A program made the translations under genes and the position numbers. The notes under the pieces were generated by a model. It saw only the letters and a list, made by a program, of their open reading frames with translations, was not told where the DNA came from and made no database searches. DNA of 59,169 nt from Spirochaetes bacterium ADurb.Bin218 (GTDB lineage Bacteria; Spirochaetota; UBA4802; UBA5550), in assembly GCA_002069965.1 (NCBI GenBank), contig MWCI01000014.1:1-59169 (forward strand). Reading direction: 5' to 3'. Of the stretch, positions 7,634 through 51,155 are shown piece by piece (positions within the stretch are counted from its first letter, which is position 1; every line of letters starts with the position of its first letter).

Positions 7634-7944
7634 TTTTTTGAATAATAACAGCAAAATTAATTAAATCAGCCATACTAAGGCTTTAAAATATCCCCAGAGG
7701 CATGATGCTAAATTATCTTTCTGAATAATGTTATTTCAATTTTTATAAAAATACAATATTTTAACAGCCATTTCCATATTCTCTTTGTGAAATTTTCCCC
7801 AGTTGAATCTATAGACCCTTCCGTTTTTTAAAGCTAAATTTGTTATAATCAAAAAAATTCTTGTCTTTTAAGTAAAACAAATATACAAAATAATTTTCTA
7901 TAATTCACCCGAGCAAATATTGCTATATTAAGGTGTTAAATATT
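7634..7944. other. Intergenic region, no gene seen
   Basis: There are 311 AT-rich bases between the hypothetical gene and the cyclase. Two TATAAT hexamers (7844-7849 and 7899-7904) are present, but neither has a recognisable -35 box at normal spacing. No hairpin with a T-tail was found. Confidence 0.4.
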
Positions 7945-9339
7945 ATGCAAATTTTGATGAAGATATTAATGGGAATGATGTATATGGTCCCCAAAAAGAT
8001 GAGCGATAGTCTTCCAGCCATGATGATGCAAAAGGGACGAGTCTCTGAAGGTAAAAATCATCCAACAATTGCCATGAATATTACAAATATGCTTATATGT
8101 TCAAAAAATTGTGGTACCTGCCCCAGTTACCCTGGAATCAGAGGGGAAGCGCTTTTTTGTGCTTCTGGTCCAAGTAAAGCTTCAGTTACTGAAAACGGTT
8201 GCAATTGTGTAACATGCCCACTTTTTGATAGATGCAGCCCCTATAGTATAGGATATTTTTGCATTCACGGTAAGTGTAGCCCTAAGGATACGCGGACAGC
8301 AATTGCTAAATTTACAGATACAGCTAAGGCATATTTACAGCGATTCACATTTCAGGTAGATGATGAAGAGTTTATTATTGAGGATGCTGTAAAAGCTGAG
8401 ATTATTGAAGATCCTGAGGTACGAGATATAAAACTAAAATTTGTTGGTGAAAAAGAAGTTAACTCTAATTCAAACACACAAATTTTGTATGCCTCCCTTA
8501 ATGCAGGAATACCACATACACATGTATGTGGTGGCAGAGCTCGCTGCTCAACCTGTAGGGTCATAATAGAAGAGGGCCTTGAATACTGCAGACCTCGGAA
8601 TGAGAGAGAAGCGCGGCTGGCTAAAATAAAAGGATTTTCCCCTGAAGTAAGGCTTGCATGTCAGACCACTGTAGATGGGGACATCTCACTGCGCAGGTTG
8701 GTATTGGATGACCATGATATATCTGAAGCAATACGACAGGGAAGAGGTGATATCAATGATGTAGGACGAGAAGTAGATGTTACTATTTTATTTTCAGATA
8801 TACGATCATTTACTGCCTTTTCTGAAAAGGCATTGCCCTATGACGTCATTCATATCTTGAACAGGTATTTCGAAACTATAGGTAATATTATTGATATCAA
8901 TGGAGGCTACATTGATAAGTATATGGGTGATGGTATCATGGCCATCTTTGGTCTGGATAAAGAAATAAAAGATGAACATGCTTATCTGGCTGTTAAATCA
9001 TCACTGGAAATACAACATGCGATTGATGACTTTAATAATTATCTATCACAACATTTTAATCATAAATTTTCCGCAGGTGTTGGTATTCACTCCGGAACTG
9101 TTATAATCGGAAACTTAGGTTTCAGCAAAAAGAAAGAATATACTGCACTGGGTGATACAGTCAATACAGCCTCACGTATAGAATCCTTGAATAAAAAAAC
9201 TGGAACTGCAATACTGACGTCTGAAAGCACATACAAAAGGTGTCACCAGTATTTCACCTGGGGACGAAAATTTAAAACAAAGGTAAAAGGGAAGGAAGAA
9301 CCGGTAATTGTTTATGAAGCAATTGATTTTATACTGTAG
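7945..9339 (+). CDS. Adenylate cyclase with DUF2769-like and 2Fe-2S ferredoxin domains
   Basis: This is a class III nucleotide cyclase fused to redox-type modules. Residues about 40-105 are Cys-rich (CSKNCGTCPSY, CNCVTCPLFDRC, GYFCIHGKC), resembling DUF2769. About 180-240 is a plant-type 2Fe-2S domain (CGGRARCSTC with a later C, VRLACQT). About 260-440 is the cyclase. Both metal Asp residues are present (FSDIRSFT, KYMGDGIMAIFG). The Lys before MGDG and the Asp in ALGDTVNTASR point to ATP rather than GTP, and the Asn/Arg pair is intact. No membrane helix is seen. A GTG at 7933 is possible, but the ATG at 7945 has AAGGTG (7930-7935) 9 bases upstream. A hairpin terminator follows. cAMP output may depend on redox state or ligand. 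Confidence 0.88.
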   Translation: MQILMKILMGMMYMVPKKMSDSLPAMMMQKGRVSEGKNHPTIAMNITNMLICSKNCGTCPSYPGIRGEALFCASGPSKASVTENGCNCVTCPLFDRCSPYSIGYFCIHGKCSPKDTRTAIAKFTDTAKAYLQRFTFQVDDEEFIIEDAVKAEIIEDPEVRDIKLKFVGEKEVNSNSNTQILYASLNAGIPHTHVCGGRARCSTCRVIIEEGLEYCRPRNEREARLAKIKGFSPEVRLACQTTVDGDISLRRLVLDDHDISEAIRQGRGDINDVGREVDVTILFSDIRSFTAFSEKALPYDVIHILNRYFETIGNIIDINGGYIDKYMGDGIMAIFGLDKEIKDEHAYLAVKSSLEIQHAIDDFNNYLSQHFNHKFSAGVGIHSGTVIIGNLGFSKKKEYTALGDTVNTASRIESLNKKTGTAILTSESTYKRCHQYFTWGRKFKTKVKGKEEPVIVYEAIDFIL

Positions 9340-36287: not shown

Positions 36288-36316
36288 AAAATCATCAAAA
36301 TATCATGGAGGTTTAT

Positions 36317-37867
36317 ATGCCAGAGCTTAAACGACTCAATATATTTGAAAAAATGCGCGGTCTTCATACAGATATAATGGAAATAAGAAGAAAAACCCTT
36401 ATAGAAATAGCAAAGATGATCCTGGAAGATAAACCACCTGAATACGTTGAAATGATTCCATACAATGTCATACAAAGAGATGTCCCAACTTATAGAGATT
36501 CAGTTTTCGCAGAAAGGGCCATTATCCGCGAAAGAGTTCGCCTTGGATTTGGACTGGATCTGCAAGAATTTGGCAAACACTCACCTGTTCTTTTTGATGT
36601 CCATGAGGCTTTTACAGATAAAAAGATAATTAAAAAACCAATAGTCAACGTCATAAAAATAGGATGTGAAAGGTGCCCAACAGATTCATTCATGGTTTCG
36701 AATTTATGCAGAGCCTGCATTGCCCATCCATGCACACTTGTTTGCCCCAAAAACTGCATAGAGAAAAAAGACTCAGGTGCAGTCATTGATCAAGATCTAT
36801 GTATCAAATGTGGTAGATGCGCTCAGGTCTGTCCATACAATGCAATTATATACAGAGAGCGCCCCTGCTCTGCAGCCTGTGGAGTCAATGCGATTGGATC
36901 TGATCAATATGGATTTGCAGATATCGATCAAGAAAAATGTGTCAGTTGTGGTCAATGTATTGTCTCATGCCCCTTTGGTGCTATAGGTGAAAAGTCTGAA
37001 ATTGTCCAGATTCTCCTTGCACTAAAAAATTCAAAAAAAGGAGGAAAATCAGTATATGCAGAGATAGCTCCAAGCTTTACAGGTCAACTGGGCGACAATG
37101 TATCTCCAGGGAAGATAGTTACTGCTCTAAAAAAGCTTGGATTCAAAGAAGTTTTTGAAGTTGCCTATGGTGCGGATGTGGATGTTTTGCATATATCCCA
37201 TGAATTATGTGAAATCATAAAATCAGGAAATAGGAAAAGATTTATTGGCACAAGCTGCTGCCCATCATGGGCAATGGCTGCAAAAAAGAATTTCCCTGAG
37301 TTTAGAGATAACATCAGCAAATCCTCAACCCCAATGGTGGAGACAGCTAAAAAAATAAAAATCATGGATAAAGATTCAGTAATAGTATTCATCGGACCAT
37401 GTATATCAAAAAAACATGAATGCTTTGATGAAGAGGTTGCAGAGCTTGTTGATTACATAATGACCTTTGAAGAGCTCAGTGCACTTGTCATTGCAGAAGG
37501 AATTGAACTGCAATCTTTACCCGAAGAAAAAACTCTCTGTGAGGGCTCAAAAAGCGGTAGAAGTTTTCCTGTGGCAGGAGGAGTGGCCTCTGCCATAATT
37601 GCACAAACTCAAAGAATGTTAAAAGAAAACTTCGAGATTCCCTTTTCAAGTGCAGACACCCTTGCAGCTTGTCTGAAACTTTTAAAGGATGTAAAATCAG
37701 GAAAGCTAAAACCTGCACCTCTACTTATTGAGGGAATGGCATGCCCCTTTGGATGCATTGGAGGACCTGGGACAATGAGCACTTTAATTAAGGCAAAGAA
37801 AAGCGTAAGTGATTTTGCTCAAAAAGCAGAATATGATTTGCCATCGGATTATATATCGGAGAGCTAA
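36317..37867 (+). CDS. Monomeric [FeFe]-hydrogenase-type protein (group B-like)
   Basis: This is a 516-residue iron-sulfur protein. The N-terminal part has four-cysteine ferredoxin motifs (CRACIAHPCTLVCP, CIKCGRCAQVCP, CVSCGQCIVSCP) and an additional CSAACG. The catalytic domain has the three H-cluster loops: TSCCPSW, IGPCISKKHE and EGMACPFGCIGGPG. The second and third differ from the group A forms (MPC..KK.E and GGGQP). This suggests the group B family of fermentative or hydrogen-sensing enzymes. The frame can open at ATG 36305, but GGAGG lies 5 bases before ATG 36317. A TTGACC/TATATT promoter is upstream. Maturases HydEFG are not in the window. Confidence 0.88.
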   Translation: MPELKRLNIFEKMRGLHTDIMEIRRKTLIEIAKMILEDKPPEYVEMIPYNVIQRDVPTYRDSVFAERAIIRERVRLGFGLDLQEFGKHSPVLFDVHEAFTDKKIIKKPIVNVIKIGCERCPTDSFMVSNLCRACIAHPCTLVCPKNCIEKKDSGAVIDQDLCIKCGRCAQVCPYNAIIYRERPCSAACGVNAIGSDQYGFADIDQEKCVSCGQCIVSCPFGAIGEKSEIVQILLALKNSKKGGKSVYAEIAPSFTGQLGDNVSPGKIVTALKKLGFKEVFEVAYGADVDVLHISHELCEIIKSGNRKRFIGTSCCPSWAMAAKKNFPEFRDNISKSSTPMVETAKKIKIMDKDSVIVFIGPCISKKHECFDEEVAELVDYIMTFEELSALVIAEGIELQSLPEEKTLCEGSKSGRSFPVAGGVASAIIAQTQRMLKENFEIPFSSADTLAACLKLLKDVKSGKLKPAPLLIEGMACPFGCIGGPGTMSTLIKAKKSVSDFAQKAEYDLPSDYISES

Positions 37868-37874
37868 ATTGAAT

Positions 37875-39674
37875 TCACACCATAAAATCTATCTTAAACT
37901 CTGTACCTCCATTTTTGACTATGGAGAGTTTACCTTTAAGTTGCTGCACAAGCATATTCACTACGGAAAGTCCAAAGCAACTCTTGCCAAACATTTCACA
38001 GGCATCAGGGAGACCAACTCCATTATCCTTAACAGAAATCTGCACAGTTCTTGCAGTCTTTCTAATCATCTTTACATGAATAGTTCCTGATGCTTGCTTG
38101 GGGAAAGCATATTTAAAAGCATTGGTAAGAAGCTCATTTATGATTATGCCTGAGGGGAATAAGATAGAAGAATCAAGTTTAAAATCCTCAATCTCTTTCA
38201 AAACCTTAATATAACCACCAGGGTTATAGCTCTCAGATATCTTATCTATGAGATCTGAAACATAGGCAAAAACAGGCACACTTCTGTAATCCTCAGATCT
38301 ATATAGCATCTCGTAAATACTCATCATGCTTATAACTCTGTTCCTTGCATCCTGAATTGCCACAATTGCAGCAGGATCCTGCAAGGTATCTCTCTGCAAA
38401 TAGAGCAAAGATGCTATTGACCCCATGTTATTTTTAACTCTATGATGAACCTCTTTAAGAAGTAGTTCCTTTTCTTTAAGGAGCTCAACTATCTGAGCCT
38501 CAGAGCTTTTCTGTTCTGTTATATCTATAGTCATGGAAAAAAATCCAATGATCTCACCACTGCTTATATGAGGGACATACTCAACCCTGAGTATACGCCT
38601 GTCTCCATTTTTGTCAAAGATGTAGTTTTCATAAACAACAGACTCACCACTTAAGGCTTTTTTAATGTAGGGATAAGCTCTTTCCAGATAGTCAGGTGGC
38701 ACAATATCAGATATCTTTCTTCCACAAAAATCATCTTTATCCATGCCATACCACTGAGCATAGGATTTGTTCACATATACATAGGACTCCTCTTTATCTA
38801 AAAAGGCAATATATGCAGGAACTCCATCAATAATAATCTGCAACTTCTCTTCGCTATCTTGTAACTGTTTTGCTGAATTATACTCAGAGGTAATATCTCT
38901 AAAGACTATCACCCTCCCTCTTATGTCACCATTCTCATTACGTATTGGAGAACTACTTTTATCAATACGGAAGACTTCGCCACTTCGTGAAAAGAGGATA
39001 AGCTTTTTTCTCCATTCCCCCTGAGGATCAAAATTAATAATGTGATGTTCAGAGTCTTTATCTGGTTGATTCTCCTTTATATCCATAACTCTAAAGACAT
39101 CGTAAAGAGGCCTACCATAGGCCCCATGAAGTTTCCATCCAGTGAGCTGTTCTGCAGATCTGTTCATTCTAAGGATTTTCCCTTGCTCATCTGTTGCTAT
39201 AACTCCATCAAGTATTGAATGCAACGTAACATCCAGATAAATTTCCCTTTCTTTTGTTTGCCTCTGAGCCTCAAATAACTCAAAAGCCATTTCAATAGAT
39301 GATAGCAAGACAAACTCCCCAGAATTTTTGACAACATATCCATAGCGGGTAATGTCTTTAACCCGATTAACAGTTTCCCTACCTGCATGGGCTGTTAAAA
39401 AAACAATAGGGATATCCCTTTTCTTTAAAATTTCCTCAGCAACTTTAGTTCCATCTGTGCCGTTACCCAGATCTATATCCATAAGAATTAGATCAATGGA
39501 GTCATCATTTACAGCAATGGCCATAGCATCATGTCCATTATACACCTGAATAACATCATATCCATTTGAAGAGAGGAACTCAGCCTGAGCCATAGCAATA
39601 ATTACCTCATCTTCAACAAGGAGTATGGTTTTTTTATTTTTTAAGTCTTGCTGTGTTGATGGTATATTTTTCAT
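37875..39674 (-). CDS. Hybrid-type sensor kinase: REC-PAS-PAS-HisKA_2-HATPase
   Basis: This is a 599-residue cytosolic protein with no membrane helix. The N-terminal receiver (about 14-130) has VEDEVI, phosphoacceptor MDIDLG, FLTAHA and VVKN. Two PAS domains follow (about 150-275 and 280-400). The HisKA_2 dimerisation helix reads LLLKEVHHRVKNNMGSI with the phosphorylatable His, and the HATPase has INELLTNAFKYAFP and VKDNGVGLP. An N-terminal receiver on a HisKA_2 kinase implies that phosphorelay from another kinase gates its activity. It converges on the hydrogenase gene, 7 bases apart. PAS sensing of redox or gas is plausible but not demonstrated. Confidence 0.92.
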   Translation of the reverse strand: MKNIPSTQQDLKNKKTILLVEDEVIIAMAQAEFLSSNGYDVIQVYNGHDAMAIAVNDDSIDLILMDIDLGNGTDGTKVAEEILKKRDIPIVFLTAHAGRETVNRVKDITRYGYVVKNSGEFVLLSSIEMAFELFEAQRQTKEREIYLDVTLHSILDGVIATDEQGKILRMNRSAEQLTGWKLHGAYGRPLYDVFRVMDIKENQPDKDSEHHIINFDPQGEWRKKLILFSRSGEVFRIDKSSSPIRNENGDIRGRVIVFRDITSEYNSAKQLQDSEEKLQIIIDGVPAYIAFLDKEESYVYVNKSYAQWYGMDKDDFCGRKISDIVPPDYLERAYPYIKKALSGESVVYENYIFDKNGDRRILRVEYVPHISSGEIIGFFSMTIDITEQKSSEAQIVELLKEKELLLKEVHHRVKNNMGSIASLLYLQRDTLQDPAAIVAIQDARNRVISMMSIYEMLYRSEDYRSVPVFAYVSDLIDKISESYNPGGYIKVLKEIEDFKLDSSILFPSGIIINELLTNAFKYAFPKQASGTIHVKMIRKTARTVQISVKDNGVGLPDACEMFGKSCFGLSVVNMLVQQLKGKLSIVKNGGTEFKIDFMV

Positions 39675-39870
39675 AAAATAAACTTCTAATTTTGGATTTT
39701 AAAAAAACTATTCAAATTTACTATCTGAGACATGTAATCCTTTTTTGTTAAAAATCAAGGTAAAAATGTATTGAAATTATAAAATTTATAAAGTTACTGT
39801 AAAGACTATTGTGGAAAATTTGATAGGTCAAGATTTACACTAAAAAAATTTAAGCAAACTATTATATATA

Positions 39871-39894
39871 TTATATAAAAAAATTTTTATATAA
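39871..39894. repeat. AT-rich palindrome upstream of the signal-peptidase-like gene
   Basis: Arms TTATATAAAAA (39871-39881) and TTTTTATATAA (39884-39894) are separated by two bases. It lies 18 bases before the TTG start at 39913, between the kinase and the signal-peptidase-like gene. Confidence 0.5.
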
Positions 39895-39912
39895 AATTAC
39901 AAGGATAGAGCT

Positions 39913-40800
39913 TTGACAAAAAAAATAATTACCTCTTCTATAAACAAAAGATCTAAACCCCTCAAGGCAGCAATTCTCTCTTTGTTACTTATTGGTCTTG
40001 GTGAAACATATACTGGCTCTCCTTTCATAGGAGCATCATTGCTGCTTTTGAGAAGTTTTATTCTTCTCTCTGCTGCATTTTATTCATACCTTAATCCTCA
40101 TGTAAATGCTAAATATGCAGTCATCATATCACTGTTACTTACAATTTTTGTTTCTTTTATATCTCCTGCAATTGCTTATATAAAAGCCAGAGAAATAAAG
40201 GTCCTAAAATGGTATAATAGCTATATTTTTTATCTATCATTTGCAGCTATCTCTCTTATTACAACCTTCACAGCAGCAGTCATATATTTCTCATTTTTTT
40301 ACTTTTATAAGGCAGACATAGACTACCCTCCACTTATAGCAAAAGGCGATATTCTCTTAATACAAAAATACTGCCCCCTCTATACCTATGGTGATTTAAT
40401 TCTAATCCCCTCAGAACCATACGCTATCATAGGGAGAATTATAGGGCTCCCGGGGGAGACAGTTGAATATTCCTCTGGAAGATTTATTGTAAATGAATCC
40501 CATCTACATCTTTCTGTATTTTCTGAGGAAGATCTAAAAAACTTTTCCTTAACAGATTACGATATCTATGCAGAAAAAAACAGCAATATATATTATCCAG
40601 TGATAAAAAATAGTAATTTCAAATTAAATAAAACAAAATGCTCTCCTCAGGAATACTTTCTGGCGCCAGATAACCGCAACCTAAGTAATTTTTTTATAAA
40701 AGCCACAGAAGATAAATTTTATGGAAAAATTCTTGCCACTGTCTATTCCATACGAGGCTTTGTGCTGTTTAAAAATTTTTCTATTACAGAAAAAGATTAA
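39913..40800 (+). CDS. Signal-peptidase-I-like membrane protein, probably inactive
   Basis: This is a 295-residue protein with four hydrophobic helices in residues 18-140 and an S26-type beta domain after them. Family boxes are recognisable: GDILLIQKYCPLYTYGDLILIP, RIIGLPGETVEY and YFLAPDNRNLS. The Ser of the usual S-M-x-P motif is absent (ADIDYPPLIAKGD). The Lys that normally precedes R-x-x-G-L-P-G is Gly (IIGRIIGLPGE). Both catalytic residues are thus missing, so peptidase activity is unlikely. The start is TTG with AAGGA at 39901-39905, 7 bases away; no nearby in-frame ATG exists. Function unknown; perhaps a substrate-binding or chaperone-like relative. Confidence 0.8.
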   Translation: MTKKIITSSINKRSKPLKAAILSLLLIGLGETYTGSPFIGASLLLLRSFILLSAAFYSYLNPHVNAKYAVIISLLLTIFVSFISPAIAYIKAREIKVLKWYNSYIFYLSFAAISLITTFTAAVIYFSFFYFYKADIDYPPLIAKGDILLIQKYCPLYTYGDLILIPSEPYAIIGRIIGLPGETVEYSSGRFIVNESHLHLSVFSEEDLKNFSLTDYDIYAEKNSNIYYPVIKNSNFKLNKTKCSPQEYFLAPDNRNLSNFFIKATEDKFYGKILATVYSIRGFVLFKNFSITEKD

Positions 40801-40856
40801 CTTTCTCCATAAAGTATTCATAACAACACTTTATAATTATACAAATTTTATTTAAC

Positions 40857-40885
40857 TTGACTTAAATTCTATAAGAAGTTATAAT
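40857..40885 (+). promoter_or_regulatory. Near-consensus sigma-70-type promoter
   Basis: TTGACT (40857-40862), an exact 17-base spacer and a perfect TATAAT (40880-40885). The epimerase start lies 53 bases beyond, behind a GAGGGGG ribosome site. Confidence 0.8.
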
Positions 40886-40938
40886 TAGATCCACATTGTT
40901 TTTAAAGCATCCTTTAAAAATAAAAAGAGGGGGATTTT

Positions 40939-41922
40939 ATGATATTAATAACCGGTTCTAATTCACTTTTAGGTCAGGCTATTTTAAAAAAATTTGTTCA
41001 AAATGGAGAAAAGGTCAGGTGCTACGACATGTATAAGCCTGAGTCCTTACCAAAGGATGTTGAATTCATTCAAGGGGATCTCTTTACATTCAAGAAACTC
41101 ATAAGTGCCTGCAAGGGAGTGGACACAATAATTCATCTCATGGACAAAAGCCGCTCACAAAAGGTCGGCAGAAGAAAGATGAAAAAAATAAACATTAACG
41201 GTACTCTTAACCTCATGATTGCAGCAAAAAGAGTAAATGTACCAAGGTTCATATTTCTCTCCACCTATGGAGTTTATGGTAAAACAGATTCCTTCCCCCT
41301 CAAGGAAGAAGATCGTAAAAAGCCATACACCCCCTATGGGAAAGATAAGCTCAAGGCAGAACAATTGTGCACAGCCTATGCAAAAAAACACAATATCAAT
41401 CTCACAATTGTAAGACCATCTCTTATAGCAGGCCCTGGGGTTCGTAATACCTCAATATTAATAACACTTTATCTTGCAATGGGTCTTGGCAATGATAATG
41501 TAATGTATATGTCTGGTAATGGTGATACAAGATTTCAGCTTCTTGATCCTGAGGATGCTGCAGAGGCTTTTTACAAGATATATAAAGCAGGGAAAAAATC
41601 CTATGGAGAGATCTTCAATATCGGTTCAGATAATGTTCCAACTCAGATGGAACAAATTGTAAAAATAAAAGAAACATGCAAACTCGATTTTGCCGTTAAG
41701 CACATAAGTCCAATTAAGGCATGGCTTTACTCCCTTTTATTTAAGCCATCAAATGTAAACTACTTTACAAGGGAACATAGACTCTTTATCTTTCACAGTG
41801 TTTATCTTGACTGCCAGAAAATAAAAACATTGATAGGATGGCATCCCAAAAAAGATAATATTGAGATACTCACAGAAACAGTTAAGTGGTATAAAGAAAA
41901 GCTTGGCAATATAAAAAATTAA
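40939..41922 (+). CDS. NAD(P)-dependent epimerase/dehydratase (extended SDR)
   Basis: This is a 327-residue extended short-chain dehydrogenase. The Rossmann glycine motif is ITGSNSLLGQAIL. The catalytic region has STYGVYG with the Tyr/Lys pair in YTPYGKDKLKAE, and IVRPSLIAGPG follows. These features place it among nucleotide-sugar epimerase-like proteins, but the substrate cannot be told from the sequence. It has its own strong promoter and AGAGGGGG ribosome site, so it is likely well expressed as a single gene. The stop is 2 bases from the stop of the convergent VWA gene. Confidence 0.87.
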   Translation: MILITGSNSLLGQAILKKFVQNGEKVRCYDMYKPESLPKDVEFIQGDLFTFKKLISACKGVDTIIHLMDKSRSQKVGRRKMKKININGTLNLMIAAKRVNVPRFIFLSTYGVYGKTDSFPLKEEDRKKPYTPYGKDKLKAEQLCTAYAKKHNINLTIVRPSLIAGPGVRNTSILITLYLAMGLGNDNVMYMSGNGDTRFQLLDPEDAAEAFYKIYKAGKKSYGEIFNIGSDNVPTQMEQIVKIKETCKLDFAVKHISPIKAWLYSLLFKPSNVNYFTREHRLFIFHSVYLDCQKIKTLIGWHPKKDNIEILTETVKWYKEKLGNIKN

Positions 41923-41924
41923 AT

Positions 41925-43604
41925 CTATCTCTTAATTGTTTTTTTCACCTTACCATCATAATATTCAATGGCGCTAAATTTTTCTCCCTGCTCTTTTTTA
42001 AAAATAGAGGAGGGAGACTTTATAATCTGCAATAAAAACTGTCCTAACTTTATAAAAAGCAGCAGAAGAAGCTTCCCTATACTACCCTCTCCAATCTGAA
42101 AGCTAAAGGTAAGCTGAGCTCTCTTCATCTCATCAATAGTTATCTTATGCTTATTTAATGACATCTGCTTCATTAGTTTGCGAGCTTCCTTTCTATCAAG
42201 CTTAAGCTTCTTTTTATCCTCATGATATTTACCAGATTTTGTAATCATAAGGAAGAGCTCTGTGTCCTTCATGAGATCTGATTTAATCTTTTCAATCCTT
42301 TCATAAAGAGCTTTTAGCTCAACCATATTTGTTTTGCCATATTCCATTAGCATTTTTATATACTGTCCCAAAAAATAGGTCTGCTTATAAAGCCGTTCTT
42401 TTTCATCCCCTGTGAAATATTTAATATTTGTGCTTTCAAGCTTTTTAATCCAATGAAATATATTTTCAAGATTCTCATAAGACACATCATATAGATGATC
42501 TACCTTAAGATCCCCTACCTCTATATAATTTTTTGATACTCTCTTAAGATCCTTAAACATCTTATTTGAATAATCCATAATTAGCCTGTATGCTCGCTTC
42601 TCAAAAGTTGAAAGTGGCTTTTCTGAATTATCCGGATCTTTAAGAATATTTTTTATATCCTTCATTTTTATAGAGGTTGGATCAAAATCAATACCCTCTC
42701 CTGCAAAAGCAGCCTTTATGTCATAAAAATCTGGTTCTGGCATTTCATCTCCAATTTTTAATATATGGAGCTTAATGTTGCCGAGTTTTTCCAGCATATC
42801 CTCGGGATCTATTCTGCTAACTCCATCAGTGACAACCAGTATTTCTGCATTAGCCATTTCCTTTGAATAATTTATATCATCCACAGCCTGGAAAACAGCC
42901 TTCTGGAGATTTGTGCTTACCCCACCTGTTGTTGCCAGAAGAACCTTTTCTATGAGCCTTGGGAAGTCCTCTTTCTTCTCAATTTTAAAAAGTTCCCCAG
43001 TCTGAGTATCAAAGGTTCTAAAAAAAAGCTTTGCATTGGTCTGAAACTTTCTCCTCAAAAATTCAGCAACAAGACATTTGGAATAAAAATTCCTCATGTG
43101 CATATCCATGGATCTTGATGTATCAAGGAGAATATAAAATATCTGCTCAAATTTATTGGCATCCCTTCCACTTTCATTTTGCAGGGTATTCACTGGCTTA
43201 AAGTGATCTGAATCTGACTCATAGTGTTTTTGCACCATGAGAGTTTTTGTAAAGAGCTTGGCATCAAATATATCATCATCCTGAGCAAGCTCACGGGGAA
43301 GAGCACGTTTGAGATCCTTAATATCTTTATATGCCTCAATCTCCATCTTATCACTGAGAGGCGCAAGGTGTTCTATGCGGTTTATGGATATACTCTTTTC
43401 CCTCTCTGGAATATATAGAGGCTCTTCTTTGGTTATTTCTTCAATCGCATTAAGGGCATCAGCATTTTCTCTCTGGGTAAAGAGATTGCGTGCAATTTCA
43501 AAGAGTATAAAAAACTTAGGAGGCAAAATAAGCTGTATATTATCAAAAAGCCCCAGCTCATCCCAGTACTCAAAAAAATCCTCTCCATCAAAGTGAGATG
43601 ACAT
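41925..43604 (-). CDS. VWA-domain protein (CoxE/ViaA-like)
   Basis: This is a 559-residue cytosolic protein. A von Willebrand A domain (about 158-320) has a full MIDAS: DTSRSMDMH, a Thr in TTGGVSTNLQKA and the Asp in VVTDGVSRI. The C-terminal 230 residues are helical, with several charged stretches, and end in a hydrophobic helix (GKLLLLLFIKLGQFLLQII) plus a basic tail. VWA proteins of this kind pair with MoxR-type AAA+ ATPases in RavA-ViaA-like chaperone systems. The MoxR-type gene is directly upstream (9 bases). It is the last gene of the probable four-gene operon. Confidence 0.88.
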   Translation of the reverse strand: MSSHFDGEDFFEYWDELGLFDNIQLILPPKFFILFEIARNLFTQRENADALNAIEEITKEEPLYIPEREKSISINRIEHLAPLSDKMEIEAYKDIKDLKRALPRELAQDDDIFDAKLFTKTLMVQKHYESDSDHFKPVNTLQNESGRDANKFEQIFYILLDTSRSMDMHMRNFYSKCLVAEFLRRKFQTNAKLFFRTFDTQTGELFKIEKKEDFPRLIEKVLLATTGGVSTNLQKAVFQAVDDINYSKEMANAEILVVTDGVSRIDPEDMLEKLGNIKLHILKIGDEMPEPDFYDIKAAFAGEGIDFDPTSIKMKDIKNILKDPDNSEKPLSTFEKRAYRLIMDYSNKMFKDLKRVSKNYIEVGDLKVDHLYDVSYENLENIFHWIKKLESTNIKYFTGDEKERLYKQTYFLGQYIKMLMEYGKTNMVELKALYERIEKIKSDLMKDTELFLMITKSGKYHEDKKKLKLDRKEARKLMKQMSLNKHKITIDEMKRAQLTFSFQIGEGSIGKLLLLLFIKLGQFLLQIIKSPSSIFKKEQGEKFSAIEYYDGKVKKTIKR

Positions 43605-43613
43605 TTTTATACC

Positions 43614-45074
43614 CTACATCAAGTCTCTGTAATCTTTCAAAATGCCGTTTTTCAGTTCATTTACCTCTTCAACTGACGAATTAACTTCAAAAACGCTTTT
43701 CTTTAGATATTCCAGTGTAAGGTTTTCCTCTTCTCCTTCACGACGTCTCCCTGCAAAAACCATCTTCAAGAGATTTTTCAACCCCTCAAGAAGCGAACTT
43801 TTCTTTAAAATCTGTTCACGCTTGTCTGGATCGCTTTTTATCTCTTCAAAAATTTTTCTTATATTCAAAAGAAATTCTATTTGCGCAAGTGCCCCATTTG
43901 CCTTAAAGTGATTCATTGTCTTTTGAAAAACATCAAGATATAAATCCTTCTCGGATTTATCCATGTTTTTCATAGAAACAAAACTATTTAAGGTACACAG
44001 AGCAATATGCATGTCTCTAAGGTCATCCATTGTAACCTCAAAGCGATTATTTATAATTGCAGAGGCTCTCAAGAAATCACCCAGCTTTGCCTGCTTTCTT
44101 GGGCTTATAAAAAACTTTGAGTCGTTTTTGCGCATTTCGCTAATATACTTTGTAATAAAGACATTTTTCATAAAATAAATAAAATCAGGAACATTAACCT
44201 TAATATCCCTGTGATTGTTTGTAATAATCTCATTTAAAAAGAGTATCTGGTTAAAATATATCTTCTTATCAGGATCTACCGGCTTGCCCCTCTTTGCAGT
44301 ATAGGTTTCATCAATGAGTAACTGATTATAAACATTATTGTCCTCTGGTATAATTGCCTTATAGGTAAACCTGTCAAGAACAGCCTCTGTAACCTCATTC
44401 ATCCTCATATAGTTGGCAGTTGCAATAGCTGTATGGACAACAGCATCTATTTGCTCTGATCCATTTATGAACTTCCTTTCATTAAGGACAGAGAGAAGAG
44501 ATCTCAAGACAACATCGCTGGCATCAAAAAACTCATCTAAAAAAACAAGGTTAGCCTCAATGATAGACCCCTTGATATTATGCCTTATTCTTCCTTTACG
44601 AAACTCTTCAATATTGTAAGGCCCAAAATAGTTATCCGGAGTTTGATCTTTGCTAGCCTGAGAAGAAAAAACTCGTGCTCCCTCAAATATATTAAAAATT
44701 GAGCTTGCAAGATAAGATTTTGCCATACCTGTTCGGCTAAGCAATAACATATGCTCCCCTGTAAGTATTGCAAAAATCGCCTGCCTGATTATATCCTCTC
44801 GCCCAATTACAGCCTGACTGATATTATTCATGTGCCAGTTGAGATATTCAACAATAGTTGGAATATCATGCTCACCATCAGGTATCATCTTTACAACATC
44901 GCCAACTGCAAGAGTACCTGTTCTCCTGATTACATCTTTTGCTCCAAAGGAATCGTCATTTATGGACTTCTTCTGCTTTAGATCAAAGGAGTCTCCTGTT
45001 CTATCATCAGGAGTAATTATTCTGTAGCCGTCTCTCTCAAAAATGCTTTTTACTTCTTCACGGTTGCTTAACAT
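43614..45074 (-). CDS. MoxR/RavA-type AAA+ ATPase
   Basis: This is a 486-residue hexameric-type ATPase. The AAA+ core lies at about 85-345. Walker A is LLLSRTGMAKSYLA, with the first Gly replaced by Ser, a MoxR-type variation. Walker B is LVFLDEFFDA, the sensor-1 phrase is AIATANY, and the arginine-finger phrase is VLDRFTYKAIIPED. The N-terminal 80 residues are charged and not recognised. The C-terminal 130 residues are helical. It is followed 9 bases later by the VWA gene and preceded 16 bases earlier by a PAS kinase-like gene, an unusual partner for MoxR. It should remodel or assemble a target protein with the VWA partner. Confidence 0.9.
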   Translation of the reverse strand: MLSNREEVKSIFERDGYRIITPDDRTGDSFDLKQKKSINDDSFGAKDVIRRTGTLAVGDVVKMIPDGEHDIPTIVEYLNWHMNNISQAVIGREDIIRQAIFAILTGEHMLLLSRTGMAKSYLASSIFNIFEGARVFSSQASKDQTPDNYFGPYNIEEFRKGRIRHNIKGSIIEANLVFLDEFFDASDVVLRSLLSVLNERKFINGSEQIDAVVHTAIATANYMRMNEVTEAVLDRFTYKAIIPEDNNVYNQLLIDETYTAKRGKPVDPDKKIYFNQILFLNEIITNNHRDIKVNVPDFIYFMKNVFITKYISEMRKNDSKFFISPRKQAKLGDFLRASAIINNRFEVTMDDLRDMHIALCTLNSFVSMKNMDKSEKDLYLDVFQKTMNHFKANGALAQIEFLLNIRKIFEEIKSDPDKREQILKKSSLLEGLKNLLKMVFAGRRREGEEENLTLEYLKKSVFEVNSSVEEVNELKNGILKDYRDLM

Positions 45075-45090
45075 TTCTTATCTCCCTCTA

Positions 45091-46695
45091 TTACCTTTTT
45101 TGAGGAAAAACCATTCTAAAAGAAGTTCCTTCTCCAGGAGCAGTTTTTACACCAATTGTCCCTCCGAGATTGTTCACTATATTTGCAACAATCATCATGC
45201 CAAGTCCAGTTCCGTGTTTACCCTTTGTTGTAAAAAATGGCTGAAAAATCTTTTCTATATTTTCTTCAGGTATACCCATGCCATTGTCACTTACTGTTAG
45301 CACTGCATAGAAATCATTCTCTGTAACAACCGAATCAACTGATATTTCTATTTTCCCACCAGGGTCAACAGCATCCTCTGCATTTTCCAGAAGCTGAATT
45401 AAAATTTGCTGAACCTGATTTGGAGATGCTAAGATCTGAGGCCCCTCTTCCGGAAGATTTATTACAACATTATAGCCCTCGCTGCTGAGTCTATTTGTAA
45501 TAACATCAATGGGATGATTAGTGACAATCTTATTGAGATCACAGACTTCTTTATCTCTTTCATCTATAACAGAAAGAGCTAAAAGCTGTTCAGAAATAGT
45601 CTTTATCCTTTCCAATTCTTTTTTTAAAGAATCGACATACTCTTCAGCGGGGCTATGTTCTTCAACATTGGAATCAACAAAGTTAAGGTCCATAACCATC
45701 TTGTTTATGTGGCTTTTTAGCTCTGAGGCAACACCTGATGCCAGCAATCCCAGTGCACTCATCTTCTCTGTCCTGCTTGCCCTCTGACGGGTCTGAACCT
45801 GCTCTGTAACATCCTCAATCATTACAAGGACTCTTTCAACTACACCGGATCTACTCAGGATGGGGTCAAAAGTGGCATTGACAACTATCTCAGCCACACC
45901 TGAAAGAGGCATATATCGAACCTCTCTTGCCTTAACTGTTTTTTTGGTTAATAGCACTTCTTCAAACATAGCTGTAAAACCGGATTCGATAAATCCGGAA
46001 TACTTAATTATATTTACGCCCACAAGGGTATTGGGCTCTCTCATCATAATTCTACTCAGGGAAGGATTTTCGTTTATAACAACACCAGATGGATCTATCA
46101 TAAACATCCCAATGGGAGCATTTTTTATAATCTCATCATTTAAATCTCTAAGGTTTCTTAATTCCTCTGCCTGACGGATCTGCTCCTGAACTTTCTCTTC
46201 AAGGATTTTTGCATTCTCCTTGAGTTTTTTTTGCATTAAATACTGTTCAGTATAATTTCTCATTATACCAATAAGAGCAATAATCTCTCCGCTTTTTGTC
46301 TTAATGGGCGAAAAGTTAGTCATGAAATAATAGGGCTTACCATTTTCATATATCTTGAGAATTTCGTTTCTAAAAATCTGCCCCTTCTTCAGAACAGATT
46401 CAACTACAAAATTGCCCCTCTCAAGTTCTATCTCCTGCAGATAATCTGTATAGAGTCTTCCAGGAGTTGAGTCCCTTGATGAAAGGGTCTCCTTCCAGGC
46501 ATTGTTTGTATACTGTATTCTCATATCTTTGTTTATCACAAAGATAATATCATAGGCTGACTCAACTATTGTTCTAAAATCTATGGATTTTATCTCACCC
46601 ATATCATCAATGGAGATCTCATATTGCTGACCTAATTTTTCAATTACATCAAGCAACTCCTCACGGGATAGCTTTCCTAATTTTTCTAGATCCAT
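45091..46695 (-). CDS. PAS-PAS histidine-kinase-like protein lacking the phosphoacceptor His
   Basis: This is a 534-residue cytosolic protein. PAS domains lie at about 45-160 and 200-300, with a coiled segment between. The dimerisation helix reads SALGLLASGVASELKSHI, where active kinases have V-A-H-E/D; here the His is Ser (TCA codon, plus strand 45724-45726). The HATPase domain is complete, with LLENAEDAV, VSDNGMGIPEE, and FFTTKGKHGTGLGM. ATP binding should persist while autophosphorylation at the usual site is lost. It precedes MoxR by 16 bases. It may sense redox or a ligand and pass a conformational signal to the MoxR/VWA pair; that is inference. Confidence 0.88.
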   Translation of the reverse strand: MDLEKLGKLSREELLDVIEKLGQQYEISIDDMGEIKSIDFRTIVESAYDIIFVINKDMRIQYTNNAWKETLSSRDSTPGRLYTDYLQEIELERGNFVVESVLKKGQIFRNEILKIYENGKPYYFMTNFSPIKTKSGEIIALIGIMRNYTEQYLMQKKLKENAKILEEKVQEQIRQAEELRNLRDLNDEIIKNAPIGMFMIDPSGVVINENPSLSRIMMREPNTLVGVNIIKYSGFIESGFTAMFEEVLLTKKTVKAREVRYMPLSGVAEIVVNATFDPILSRSGVVERVLVMIEDVTEQVQTRQRASRTEKMSALGLLASGVASELKSHINKMVMDLNFVDSNVEEHSPAEEYVDSLKKELERIKTISEQLLALSVIDERDKEVCDLNKIVTNHPIDVITNRLSSEGYNVVINLPEEGPQILASPNQVQQILIQLLENAEDAVDPGGKIEISVDSVVTENDFYAVLTVSDNGMGIPEENIEKIFQPFFTTKGKHGTGLGMMIVANIVNNLGGTIGVKTAPGEGTSFRMVFPQKR

Positions 46696-46728
46696 ATATT
46701 ACACCTGCCGGTATCTCATGATGAGGTC

Positions 46729-47109
46729 TTAGCCCTCCCTGGAAATAGCTCTGTAAAACCATAGTTCAATAACAGCACTCATGGAAAGAGCAACAAGGAG
46801 GGAAATAACAAACCAGGTCACATTAAATTCCACCATAAAATATATCGCAGAAACAAAAACAAGAAAAACAATAAATTTAACAAAAAACCATTTATATGTG
46901 ACCTTAAGAAGCTTAATGGCATGGGCACCAAAGGAATTCTTCACCTGAACAAGCCAGATAACAGAAAGAATAATTCCAAGAAGAGTCCCTACAAAATACC
47001 CCATAAAATCATACTTAGAAAAACTTAGAAAAAACCACAGTGACACACAGATATTTACAAAAGCAGGTATAAACGTGAGCATAACCGCCATTTTGTATTG
47101 TTTTTCCAT
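46729..47109 (-). CDS. Small four-helix membrane protein
   Basis: This is a 126-residue protein with four predicted membrane helices (AVMLTFIPAFVNICVSLWFF; YFVGTLLGIILSVIWLV; FFVKFIVFLVFVSAIYFMV; TWFVISLLVALSMSAVIEL). The size and layout recall ATP synthase subunit I-like or small scaffold proteins, but I do not assign a family. The frame opens at a GTG (47118). The ATG at 47109 has AAAGAG 8 bases upstream and is chosen. It precedes the kinase-like gene by 33 bases, so it is likely the first gene of that operon. Confidence 0.75.
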   Translation of the reverse strand: MEKQYKMAVMLTFIPAFVNICVSLWFFLSFSKYDFMGYFVGTLLGIILSVIWLVQVKNSFGAHAIKLLKVTYKWFFVKFIVFLVFVSAIYFMVEFNVTWFVISLLVALSMSAVIELWFYRAISREG

Positions 47110-47192
47110 AACACACACTCTTTATATATTTTTACTATTTACACAGTATAAGACATCTAACATAGTTTTTTATCAATGTCAATAAAAAACAG

Positions 47193-47444
47193 CTATTTTA
47201 CATGACAACCCTTTCCATTACATCCCTTTATAGCACTATATTTTTTACCATTTAATTTGCCATCTTTTATCTGACCTTTTTGTTGAGGTATATTAAGACC
47301 TGGCGTATGGCAGTATGCACAATTGATAGGCTTGCCATCTTGAGACATATTTGCATGCTTGCCCATTATTACAGGGGTTGCATTGAGAGATATTGAAAAG
47401 ATAAACACAATTAAAGCTGAAAAAATATAAGTAAAAATTTTCAT
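47193..47444 (-). CDS. Small c-type cytochrome with CX2CH and CX4CH heme motifs
   Basis: This is an 83-residue exported protein. Residues 1-22 are a signal peptide. The mature part has CAYCH and, near the C-terminus, CNGKGCH, which is a CX4CH heme motif like that of some tetraheme c3-type cytochromes. Other His residues (GKHANMS) could be distal ligands. It probably binds two hemes and shuttles electrons in the periplasm. An AAGGAGG ribosome site precedes it. A strong hairpin lies just upstream, which separates it from adenylate kinase. Confidence 0.8.
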   Translation of the reverse strand: MKIFTYIFSALIVFIFSISLNATPVIMGKHANMSQDGKPINCAYCHTPGLNIPQQKGQIKDGKLNGKKYSAIKGCNGKGCHVK

Positions 47445-47473
47445 AAGAACCTCCTTTTTTTAGCAATTATAAC

Positions 47474-47503
47474 AAAAAAAGGCTTTTATGAAAGCCTTTT
47501 TTT
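47474..47503 (-). terminator. Bidirectional-type rho-independent terminator after adk
   Basis: Perfect 13-bp arms AAAAAAAGGCTTT (47474-47486) and AAAGCCTTTTTTT (47491-47503) flank a TATG loop. T-runs occur on both strands. It sits about 60 bases after the adk stop (minus strand) and before the cytochrome gene, so it should end adk transcripts. Confidence 0.88.
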
Positions 47504-47565
47504 GTTTGAAATTAAAAATTATTTAATTTTTTAAAAAGTAAGACTTAAGCAGCAAAAGAGAAGCT

Positions 47566-48252
47566 TTACTGCAAAGCCTTTTCCATATTTTCAGTCACTG
47601 ATTTAACACTGGGAGTTCCATCCAGTTCAATAAACTTCATACCTTTTTGCGCAGCAATTCTTTTAAAATAATTAACTGCAGCCATTGTCCCATTTACGGA
47701 ATCATAATATATGTCGTGGCGTTTATTAATAGCAGCCTCATCCTGATCATCTGCCCGTGTTGAAAGCTTGCCACCACAGACCCTACAAACAAGCTCTCCA
47801 TTTTTTTCTGCAGGCTTGATCTCATCAATATAAATATTATTGGGATGATTATTATCATTCTCGCATAATCTCCTGCCCATAATCCTCTTTCGCGCAGTTT
47901 CTCTGTCAAGAGAAAGCTCAATTATATAATCCAGAACTATCCCTGCCTCCTCAAGAGCCTTTTCAAGAGCAACAGCCTGCTCAGGATTACGGGGAAATCC
48001 ATCAAGAAGCCAGCCATTTTTACAATCATCCTTTTTAAGCCTGTCAAGGATCATAGGTATGGTTATTGAATCAGGAACCAAATCTCCTCTGTCAATATAC
48101 TCCTTTGCTTTTTTGCCAAGCTCTGTTCCGCCCTTAATGTTTTCCCTGAAAAGAGCTCCAGACTCAACATGAGTAATGTTAAATTTTTTTTGAACAACTG
48201 CGCCCTGAGTCCCTTTACCACTGCCGTTGGGACCAAAAATTAGAATATTCAT
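47566..48252 (-). CDS. adk: Adenylate kinase
   Basis: This enzyme interconverts ATP, AMP and ADP. The P-loop is FGPNGSGKGTQG, the AMP-binding segment is ESGALFRENI, and LLDGFPRNPEQ and GRRLCENDNNHPNNIY follow. The LID contains cysteines (LCENDNNHP, CRVCGG) suggestive of a metal-binding lid, although the set differs from the classical four-Cys form. The open frame extends 21 codons upstream, but ATG at 48252 has GGAGG 7 bases before it, giving 228 aa starting MNILIFGPNG. A strong terminator follows. Confidence 0.96.
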   Translation of the reverse strand: MNILIFGPNGSGKGTQGAVVQKKFNITHVESGALFRENIKGGTELGKKAKEYIDRGDLVPDSITIPMILDRLKKDDCKNGWLLDGFPRNPEQAVALEKALEEAGIVLDYIIELSLDRETARKRIMGRRLCENDNNHPNNIYIDEIKPAEKNGELVCRVCGGKLSTRADDQDEAAINKRHDIYYDSVNGTMAAVNYFKRIAAQKGMKFIELDGTPSVKSVTENMEKALQ

Positions 48253-48334
48253 TAAATATCCTCCGGGATTATTTTTTTGAGCGATTCTTTTGACTATGTT
48301 TTTTTTGTAAAGCAAGTTTTTATATACAAAAATT

Positions 48335-48395
48335 CCAAAAAAGAGCTACTGAGGATAAAATACTCCTACCCAAAAAAGAGCTTAGGGGATAATAG
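48335..48395. repeat. Imperfect direct repeat between adk and paaK
   Basis: CCAAAAAAGAGCT occurs exactly at 48335-48347 and 48370-48382, and the following bases (ACTGAGGATAAA and TAGGGGATAATA) remain similar, so the unit is about 26 bases with a 35-base period. The two copies lie in the 272-base divergent promoter region and could be tandem operator sites. Confidence 0.55.
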
Positions 48396-48524
48396 TTTCT
48401 TGATTTTACACTAAAAATTATATTTAAGAATAATTACTTAATATTTTTAGCTTATGGATAAAAGAACTTATTGACAGAGAAAAACATTGATGGTTTCTTT
48501 TTAAAAAAATTTCTGGAGTAAAAA

Positions 48525-49820
48525 ATGTATTTTCAAAAGGATATAGAAACAATCTCAAAAAACGCTCTTCACCTTCTACAATCTGAAAGGCTTAAAAAGA
48601 CTCTGGAGGCTGCTGCAACAACTCCTTACTATGGCAAGTTATTTCAAGAAAAAAAAATAGACATCTCAAAAATAAAGACTGTTGAGCATTTAAAAGATCT
48701 ACCATTTACAACAAAAAATGATCTGCGTTTGAGTTATCCTGATGGAATGGTTGCAGTCCCAAGGTCAGAGATTGTTCGCATCCATGCCTCCTCTGGCACA
48801 ACTGGCAAATCCACTGTTATATTCTATACCATGAAAGATATTGATAACTGGGCAACACTCGTTGCACGGGCAATGTATAGCACAGGTGCAAGACGGGAAG
48901 ACGTTTTTCAAAATATGATGGGATATGGGCTTTTTACTGGTGGGCTGGGGCTTCATTATGGCGCAGAAAAACTTGGATGTATGGTAATCCCTTCATCAAC
49001 AGGTAACAGTCTAAAACAACTTCAACTCATGCAGGATTTCCAGACGACGTTGATTCACATTACCCCAAGCTATGCTCTTCACCTTGTTGAGGTGATAAAA
49101 GAAAATGGGATCAACCCCCATGACCTCTCTGTTAAAAAGGCTTACTTTGGGGCAGAGCCTTATTCTGAATCCACAAGAAAAAAGCTGGAAGAGCAATGGG
49201 GCCTGGATGCATATAACTGCTATGGGCTCTCTGAGATGAATGGCCCGGGGGTTGCGATGGAGTGTATAAACAAAGCTGGAATGCACATAGCTGAAGATTA
49301 CTACATCGCAGAGATAATAAATCCAGAAACTGGCGAGCCTCTTCCAGATGGAGAAGAGGGAGAACTGGTTCTTACTCACATAAACAGAGAAGCCATGCCA
49401 ATAATCAGATACAGGACACGGGATCTCACACGCATAATACCAGAGCCTTGTTCTTGCGGAAGAACTCATAGACGAATTGAAAGAATTAAAGGCAGAACCG
49501 ATGACATGCTCATAGTGGGTGGCGTAAATGTATTCCCATCTCAAATTGAATCAGTGCTTATGACAATACCTGAGGTGGGCAACAACTACCGCATAGTTCT
49601 TGATAGAGAAGAGGGCCTTGATAGAATGCACATTCAAGTGGAGCTTTACTCCAAGCTATTCCAGGGTGATATGAAGGCTCTTAAAAAGCTCAATAAGGAG
49701 ATTGTTGAAAAATTACGAGCTCTAATTACAATAAATCCACGAATCGAATTTATGGAACCAGGTTCTCTTCCTCCAAGTGAGGGCAAAGCCAAAAGGGTTA
49801 TAGATAACAGAGAAATATAG
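48525..49820 (+). CDS. paaK: Phenylacetate-CoA ligase family protein
   Basis: This is an AMP-forming aryl-CoA ligase of 431 aa, typical for PaaK. The nucleotide-binding motif is HASSGTTGKSTVIFYT. Then come FGAEPYSE, NCYGLSEMNGPG, RYRTRDLTRI and the hinge GRTDDMLIVGGVNVFPSQIE. In anaerobes this protein often activates phenylacetate or indoleacetate released from aromatic amino acids. Directly downstream (9 bases) is an ACT-domain protein, a frequent partner of such ligases. A TCTGGAG ribosome site precedes the ATG. Confidence 0.93.
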   Translation: MYFQKDIETISKNALHLLQSERLKKTLEAAATTPYYGKLFQEKKIDISKIKTVEHLKDLPFTTKNDLRLSYPDGMVAVPRSEIVRIHASSGTTGKSTVIFYTMKDIDNWATLVARAMYSTGARREDVFQNMMGYGLFTGGLGLHYGAEKLGCMVIPSSTGNSLKQLQLMQDFQTTLIHITPSYALHLVEVIKENGINPHDLSVKKAYFGAEPYSESTRKKLEEQWGLDAYNCYGLSEMNGPGVAMECINKAGMHIAEDYYIAEIINPETGEPLPDGEEGELVLTHINREAMPIIRYRTRDLTRIIPEPCSCGRTHRRIERIKGRTDDMLIVGGVNVFPSQIESVLMTIPEVGNNYRIVLDREEGLDRMHIQVELYSKLFQGDMKALKKLNKEIVEKLRALITINPRIEFMEPGSLPPSEGKAKRVIDNREI

Positions 49821-49829
49821 GAGGTCATT

Positions 49830-50258
49830 ATGCCACATCAAGTTTCAGTTTTTGCAGAAAATAAGCCAGGTAAAATAAGCAGAATTACTGAGGTGTTGAG
49901 CAAAAATGATATAAACATAAGAGCGATAACAATCTCTGACTCAGGAGATTATGGAATAATTAAGCTATTGCTGGATAAGCCAGAGTTTGGTAACGAATGT
50001 CTCAAGAATGCTGGACTTGCAGCAACACTTAAAAGCATAGTTGCTATAAAGATTGATGATTCACCTGGAGGCTTGCACAAGGCTGCCTCTGCTATTGCAA
50101 AAGAAAATATTAACATCGAAGACGCCTATGGATTTACCATAAGGGAAAAAAATCAGGCGGTATTTGTATTTCAGGTTGAAGATATAGCTCATACAGAGAA
50201 AATCTTAAAGAATGCAGGATTTGAGGTAATATCCGATAAAGAGCTTTATTATCTATAA
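49830..50258 (+). CDS. Tandem ACT-domain protein
   Basis: This is a 142-residue protein of two ACT domains. The first (about 1-65) starts VSVFAENKPGKISRITEVL, and the second (about 70-140) starts AIKIDDSPGGLHKAASAI. ACT domains bind amino acids; here they probably sense an aromatic amino acid and regulate the PaaK-type ligase encoded just upstream, but this is inference. A GGAGG ribosome site precedes the ATG. Its stop is followed immediately by the ATG of a glycosyltransferase. Confidence 0.9.
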   Translation: MPHQVSVFAENKPGKISRITEVLSKNDINIRAITISDSGDYGIIKLLLDKPEFGNECLKNAGLAATLKSIVAIKIDDSPGGLHKAASAIAKENINIEDAYGFTIREKNQAVFVFQVEDIAHTEKILKNAGFEVISDKELYYL

Positions 50259-51155
50259 ATGCCTTATTTCTCTGTAATAATTCCATCATTTAACAGAAGG
50301 CAAAAACTCTGCAGGGCAATTGATTCTGTTTTGTCTCAATCTTTTAGAGATTACGAGCTCATTATAATTGACGATGGCTCAACAGATGGAACAGACTCCA
50401 TTGCTTTGCAATATAAAGGAAAAATCTCCTATTTTTTCCAGGAAAATCAAGGCGTGAGCTCTGCAAGAAATAAGGGTATTTCTGTTTCCAACTCCCCCTT
50501 TATTGCCTTTCTTGATTCTGACGATACATGGGATAAAAGAAAACTTGCACGCCACAAAGAGTATATTGAAAGCAACCCTCACATCCTTATTCATCAGACA
50601 GAGGATATATGGATAAGAAACGACAGGTTTGTGAATCCACAAAAAAAACATCTCAAAAGAGAAGGCGATATTTTTGAACAGTCACTGCATCTGTGCATGA
50701 TAAGCCCATCGTCAGTTGTCATGTCAAGAGAGATCTTAGATAAATATGGATATTTCGATGAAGAATTGCCAGCCTGTGAAGATTACGATTTATGGCTTAG
50801 AATAACGCCCTTTGAATACATAGGCCTTATTAAAGAAAAACTCATAACACGATATGCAGGCCACAGCGATCAGCTATCAGCTTCCTTTGAACTTATGGAT
50901 AGATTTAGAGTTTATTCCATCATGAAACTTCTTGAAATACACAAAGACAAACTATCGCCAGAGCAATATAAAAAGGCACAGACCGTGGCAATTGAAAAGA
51001 CAAAAATATTACTGCAGGGTTCCATAAAAAGAGAAGACTTCACAAAAGCTCAAATTCTCCAGAGAATACTTAATTCTCTGGAAAGTGAAATCTATAAGAA
51101 AAAAGACTATCAGATCCTCTTACAACTACATAATCCCCACGGACATAAGAGTTGA
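50259..51155 (+). CDS. Family 2 glycosyltransferase
   Basis: This is a 298-residue GT-A-fold enzyme. The family motifs are VIIPSFNRRQKLCRAIDSV, IDDGSTDGTDS and the metal-binding FLDSDDTWDKRKL; EEDYDLWLRI-like sequence (CEDYDLWLRI) follows near residue 177. There is no membrane helix. It starts directly after the ACT gene (stop and start adjacent) and so is translationally coupled to the paaK-ACT pair, although its activity is not obviously related. Its final 86 bases overlap the convergent propeller-like gene, an unusually long convergent overlap. Confidence 0.88.
   Translation: MPYFSVIIPSFNRRQKLCRAIDSVLSQSFRDYELIIIDDGSTDGTDSIALQYKGKISYFFQENQGVSSARNKGISVSNSPFIAFLDSDDTWDKRKLARHKEYIESNPHILIHQTEDIWIRNDRFVNPQKKHLKREGDIFEQSLHLCMISPSSVVMSREILDKYGYFDEELPACEDYDLWLRITPFEYIGLIKEKLITRYAGHSDQLSASFELMDRFRVYSIMKLLEIHKDKLSPEQYKKAQTVAIEKTKILLQGSIKREDFTKAQILQRILNSLESEIYKKKDYQILLQLHNPHGHKS

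Follow-up and report, generated by a model that had tools for sequence, protein, structure and literature searches.

A histidine-less PAS kinase-like protein co-encoded with a MoxR-VWA pair in an uncultured Spirochaetota order: a candidate sensor for a chaperone

In the 59,169-nucleotide contig MWCI01000014.1 of Spirochaetes bacterium ADurb.Bin218 (assembly GCA_002069965.1; the whole stretch is called the window below), genes for a PAS-domain pseudo-histidine kinase (HK), a MoxR AAA+ ATPase and a VWA-domain protein form a unit that recurs within one uncultured Spirochaetota order. We consider it reasonably probable that the three products make up a sensor-gated chaperone, in which a non-phosphorylating PAS/nucleotide pseudo-kinase contacts and gates the MoxR ring in a NifL-like manner. 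An earlier note on this DNA had described such a signal-to-remodelling route as being outside the standard models; this overstates the case, since a non-phosphorylating PAS-GHKL protein that binds and gates an AAA+ ATPase is already known from the solved NifL-NifA system, and DivL offers a pseudo-kinase with Tyr in place of His. The control principle is thus already known, while MoxR-VWA as its target is new. We know of no earlier description of a MoxR chaperone that has a non-phosphorylating sensor kinase built in.

The cluster comprises four minus-strand genes, the fourth of which encodes a short membrane protein, TM4 (Table 1). Gaps of 9 bases between the VWA and MoxR genes, 16 between MoxR and HK, and 33 between HK and TM4 agree exactly with the gene order and spacing given in the earlier note, and the protein types it had assigned (membrane protein, PAS-PAS-HATPase protein, MoxR, VWA protein with full MIDAS) were all confirmed. 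Scans for promoters (29 vs 20.9 by chance, sd 4.0) and terminators (3 vs 3.4 by chance) stayed close to the chance level or slightly exceeded it and were uninformative on transcript units, and Rfam gave no match at 39500-50500. Between adk and TM4 lies a gene for an 83-aa protein (47193-47444, minus strand) whose sequence contains a single CxxCH haem motif, CAYCH, together with an odd CNGKGCH; at this spot it was BLAST-detectable only in L002, L003 and L004. Elsewhere in the window, judged by eye, a plus-strand gene (7933-9339) encodes a Cys-rich N-terminal part followed by 2Fe-2S ferredoxin-like and nucleotide-cyclase-like domains, and at 36305-39674 an iron-hydrogenase-like protein with many ferredoxin motifs is convergent with a REC-PAS-PAS-HisKA_2 histidine kinase.

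Table 1. Features of the cluster, with positions in the window
Feature	Position	Strand	Basis or remark
VWA-domain protein, 559 aa	41925..43604	-	ORF, Foldseek VWA fold, MIDAS alignment
VWA-protein layout, from the N-terminus: a short helical part, the LPRELA motif, a predicted beta-hairpin, the VWA domain and a helical C-terminal region			
MIDAS D161-x-S163-x-S165, T231, D260	42825..43124	-	invariant in 21 aligned sequences
ViaA-like pre-VWA segment LPRELA...KLFTKTLMVQ..YES and predicted beta-hairpin	43227..43301	-	candidate pore 'finger'
MoxR AAA+ ATPase, RavA-like, 486 aa	43614..45074	-	Pfam, RavA comparison
Walker A variant SRTGMAKS, with Ser in place of the first Gly	44715..44738	-	
MoxR N-terminal motif VKSIFERDGYRIITPDD	45003..45053	-	in HK-bearing loci checked; candidate HK docking segment
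PAS-PAS-DHp-HATPase pseudo-histidine kinase (HK), 534 aa, without membrane segment	45091..46695	-	
H-box phospho-acceptor position, Ser324 (GVA-S-ELK), codon TCA	45724..45726	-	
TM4, four-helix membrane protein, 126 aa, weakly ATP-synthase-I-like	46729..47109	-	dissociable conserved neighbour

About 34 other species have the genes in the order HK-MoxR-VWA as well, so the arrangement is not due to chance. Searching about 85,000 genomes with MoxR, a scan that detects close relatives only, returned 30 loci, nearly all of them in Spirochaetota MAGs. When profiles were run against 393 Spirochaetota genomes, VWA and MoxR orthologues were each found in 36 of the 46 genomes of a single uncultured order. 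Outside it, the VWA profile gave nothing at threshold and the MoxR profile revealed three weak relatives (the RavA-like loci L137-L139 of other spirochaetes), at which motif inspection detected no kinase-like ORF beside the motor. The neighbourhood is conserved, and the claim of the earlier note thereby survives the refuting condition it had set, a gene order kept in no relative. The usual arrangement is adk-TM4-HK-MoxR-VWA followed by a convergent epimerase gene; in L011, L023 and L027, TM4 was missed by BLAST and is present as an ORF. Because adk and the epimerase stay in place too, the synteny within this order is partly inherited.

Exceptions to this arrangement define the unit. In genome G077 adk-TM4 adjoins the epimerase gene with no trio between them (L099), and HK-MoxR-VWA is found on a different contig, unaccompanied by TM4 or adk (L031/L098). 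The same site is also empty of the trio in G207 (L101), a genome that is 72% complete and whose trio may lie elsewhere, while in G170 the trio occupies yet another setting, again lacking TM4 (L024/L097). Since HK, MoxR and VWA have moved or disappeared from the site together in these genomes, the unit is HK-MoxR-VWA; the four genes treated as one in the earlier note reduce to three that travel together and a TM4 gene that dissociates. A profile search with HK in 12 genomes found it in three only, each time beside MoxR-VWA. It was absent from eight genomes without detected MoxR (two of the eight only 72-73% complete), and in G020, where MoxR-VWA is present, no HK orthologue was found. The persistence of MoxR-VWA without HK in one genome indicates that the pair can do without the sensor.

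TM4 was rejected as a core part, the trio occurring without it in two genomes and adk-TM4|epimerase occurring without the trio in two. The protein has four hydrophobic stretches. The family signal met most often among its relatives, a weak one, is that of ATP synthase I chain (AtpI, PF03899), with 7 of 19 sequences reaching E<=1 (best 0.0022; window TM4: E 0.12, 13.2 bits vs a cut-off of 25.1). It could be a displaced AtpI. An assignment to SLATT_5 was discarded, as only one of the 19 members matched, at E 0.0041 and far below cut-off. At an F-type ATP synthase locus (L135, G000:C90), inspection by eye places an AtpZ-like ORF ahead of atpB, and no AtpI-like ORF was seen between the two.

In Pfam searches the window HK matches HATPase_c (1.6e-25) and two PAS domains; no match to HisKA was found. 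At the phospho-acceptor position of the H-box, occupied by Ser324 in the window, the family has Ser, Tyr, Leu, Glu or Val, and His in none of 35 species; the N, G1, F and G2 boxes of HATPase_c are conserved. The earlier description of a sensor lacking the usual His and bearing an ATP pocket thus holds in every species seen. Among other histidine kinases of the same genome, all 24 that could be aligned at this site keep His. Tyr is found in about half of the family, its carriers forming one group on the MoxR tree, and at least four changes among non-His states are needed; Ser is encoded by all four TCN codons across the family. The rarer residues include Val in L031, from G077 with its displaced trio, and Leu in L096 (G143) and L007. 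In HisKA phosphatases the position four residues past the H-site is Thr or Asn; in the HK family this residue varies between species. A different histidine, His394 (45514-45516), at the start of the ATP-binding domain, is nearly invariant (TSHP in most relatives) and is replaced by Leu in L031.

Pairwise comparisons (NG86) gave omega values of 0.040, 0.008, 0.067, 0.062, 0.167 and 0.083 for HK in the six pairs whose dS was finite; another two were saturated. By this measure HK is under purifying selection. When the protein was divided at fixed bounds (positions 300 and 380, which makes the domain split approximate), DHp showed a lower omega than either PAS or CA in four of five computable pairs (L011/L027, L016/L020, L020/L026 and L015/L013). 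The exception was L002/L003 (PAS 0.021, DHp 0.037, CA 0.095); in L008/L009 DHp dS was saturated and DHp dN was the lowest of the three. This pattern suggests that DHp may be retained for contacts despite the loss of the phospho-acceptor.

The structural model of HK has a mean pLDDT of 81. Its second hit among PDB structures (Foldseek) was NifL in the NifL-NifA complex 9qq6 (E 7.9e-27), with low TM-scores of 0.26-0.28; E-values were comparable for WalK and LOV kinases, which are ordinary PAS kinases, and DivL (4q20) was also among the matches. The sequence of HK is nearer to AtoS-type kinases than to NifL, so HK may work like NifL and is not a NifL. A plasmid search with HK retrieved nothing but ordinary PAS kinases, with identities of about 25%.

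The putative motor, MoxR, matches bpMoxR (1.2e-31) and also AAA_5 in Pfam. It shares 26% identity with RavA over 273 aa (hhalign probability 99%); against the whole-RavA model (NCBIfam PRK13531) it scores 84.8 bits, with a cut-off of 681, and the match stops at model position 301 of 498. Walker B, Asn221 and Arg235 are invariant, and from general AAA+ knowledge we take the latter two to be sensor 1 and the Arg finger. The N-terminal motif was considered as a leftover receiver domain and rejected, the alpha1-beta2 likeness being by eye and Pfam giving no Response_reg match.

The VWA protein matches VWA_CoxE, VWA_3 and VWA in Pfam below curated cut-offs, and a search of its sequence against PDB gave nothing relevant. 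Its AlphaFold2 model matches many solved VWA domains (Foldseek). The LPxELA segment ahead of the MIDAS is also found in E. coli ViaA and in the VWA gene of another spirochaete; direct comparison with ViaA by hhalign gave a probability of 0.9% and E 0.059. Finger-in-pore arrangements are known from NorQD (PMC9976466, PMC13036017), and the hairpin predicted at residues 113-126, where model confidence is low, could serve as such a pore finger.

Genome G020 (L030/L100), with TM4-MoxR-VWA and HK gone, can be viewed as a natural knock-out: the motor is changed and the sensor lost. Its MoxR has no N-terminal motif around 'IFExDGYxI', a type of motif that is present, with some variation, in the 29 HK-bearing MoxR loci compared and in L096. 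The canonical P-loop, GRTGMAKS, was found only in G020, every other readable locus having SRTGMAKS. Median identity to the family is reduced in G020 relative to other genomes for the MoxR core (52.7 vs 72.9) and VWA (34.3 vs 48.2); it is ordinary for adk (78.8 vs 78.3) and nearly so for TM4 (32.3 vs 37.4), all these correlates of HK loss coming from one lineage only. As HK and the MoxR N-terminus are contiguous, a single deletion could explain both losses, but it would leave the P-loop difference and the faster change of VWA unexplained. Several genomic signs thus couple the sensor to MoxR, in line with the pairing that the earlier note had proposed.

Such coupling could also arise in other ways. 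HK might be a pseudo-kinase of the DivL type that takes its signal from a response regulator or another kinase, its tie to MoxR-VWA being indirect, through reporting or co-regulation. DivL, in which Tyr replaces the usual His, uses its HK region to sense a phosphorylated regulator (PMC4211667), and both the frequency of Tyr in our family and the fold match to 4q20 are in keeping with this. We nevertheless regard it as unlikely, given that the usual neighbours of the trio at the locus itself (adk, TM4 and the epimerase) include no response regulator, that HK was never found without MoxR-VWA in the 12 genomes searched for it, and that MoxR is altered where HK is lost. It is also improbable that HK is a client remodelled by MoxR-VWA, not their controller. 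In favour of this reading, RavA-ViaA and NorQ-NorD work on specific partners, and a dedicated client would be expected to be co-encoded and co-lost; against it, MoxR-VWA survive without HK in G020, and two PAS domains with a kept ATP pocket are more natural as an input than as a client. We see very little chance that HK is still a kinase acting on another residue, either Ser/Tyr at the H-site or a different histidine such as His394. Although most species have a hydroxyl residue at the H-site, with Ser reached via all four TCN codons, some have Leu, Val or Glu; His394, for all its near-invariance, belongs to the beginning of the ATP-binding domain, and L031 has Leu there. Finally, inherited synteny of neighbours without a functional link is scarcely credible. 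The adjacency of adk and the epimerase, which most species preserve too, fits it, but the trio moves or goes missing as a block apart from them and TM4, and change is coupled on the HK-less branch.

We therefore favour the sensor-gated three-protein chaperone. MoxR, a RavA-like AAA+ protein, would be the motor, and the VWA protein its adaptor, which would insert its hairpin into the ring pore and hold the client through the MIDAS. HK would be incapable of the usual phosphate transfer and would bind ATP or ADP, and its PAS domains would sense a cytosolic cue. Its DHp/CA module would touch MoxR, possibly at the MoxR N-terminal motif, and this contact would either allow or prevent assembly of the ring or hydrolysis of ATP. 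HK would act on the MoxR chaperone as NifL does on the transcription activator NifA. The sequences themselves show the gene unit, the lost His, the kept ATP pocket, the purifying selection and the genetic coupling, whereas nucleotide binding, physical contact and the direction of control are the steps of this scheme that we infer. As a tentative refinement, which we hold to be rather evenly poised, the MoxR N-terminal motif might dock on DHp/CA, with the nucleotide and PAS-ligand state setting ring assembly or ATPase activity and the Ser-type P-loop being part of this dependence.

Among known systems, the trio resembles NifL-NifA in that a PAS-PAS-DHp-GHKL protein is encoded with an AAA+ ATPase and in the fold match of HK to NifL in 9qq6. 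The GHKL/DHp part of NifL contacts the AAA+ domain of NifA and blocks the hexamer without phosphotransfer (PMC12998174, PMC9866876), and the NifL H-domain keeps its conserved His (review, PMC9866876). In contrast, the putative target of HK is not a sigma-54 activator but a MoxR chaperone accompanied by VWA, and HK falls below the curated cut-off of TIGR02938 (101.2 vs 242.45 bits). Caulobacter DivL shares with HK the PAS domains, the kept HK boxes and a non-His H-site; it binds a response regulator, whereas none is among the usual neighbours of HK-MoxR-VWA.

With RavA-ViaA the window system shares a RavA-type MoxR core, an adjoining VWA gene and LPxELA ahead of the MIDAS as in ViaA. It differs in having no match to the C-terminal (LARA) part of RavA, a variant P-loop, a VWA domain situated mid-protein with a C-terminal helical region, and an extra co-encoded sensor. 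NorQ-NorD and CbbQ-CbbO likewise combine a MoxR ring with a VWA partner, and the predicted hairpin is a possible pore finger of the same kind; their VWA architecture is different, and the parts of the literature consulted report no co-encoded pseudo-kinase sensor. The MoxR-vWA ternary conflict systems (eLife 2020, PMC7159879) are similar in the bpMoxR match and in having a third component beside MoxR and vWA, but Pfam detected no VMAP, iSTAND, FtsH or beta-propeller component and no effector domain. That survey lists no histidine kinase domains among vWA-associated effectors (PMC7159879), and no description of a pseudo-kinase co-encoded with a MoxR-VWA pair was found in the open-access literature. 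A defence-system reading was dropped, there being no PADLOC match.

Little is known about how the activity of MoxR chaperones is turned on and off, and a co-inherited pseudo-kinase that accompanies a MoxR-VWA pair throughout an order makes this question accessible with three proteins. If the proposed reading is true, NifL-type control by contact would extend from transcription activators to protein remodelling.
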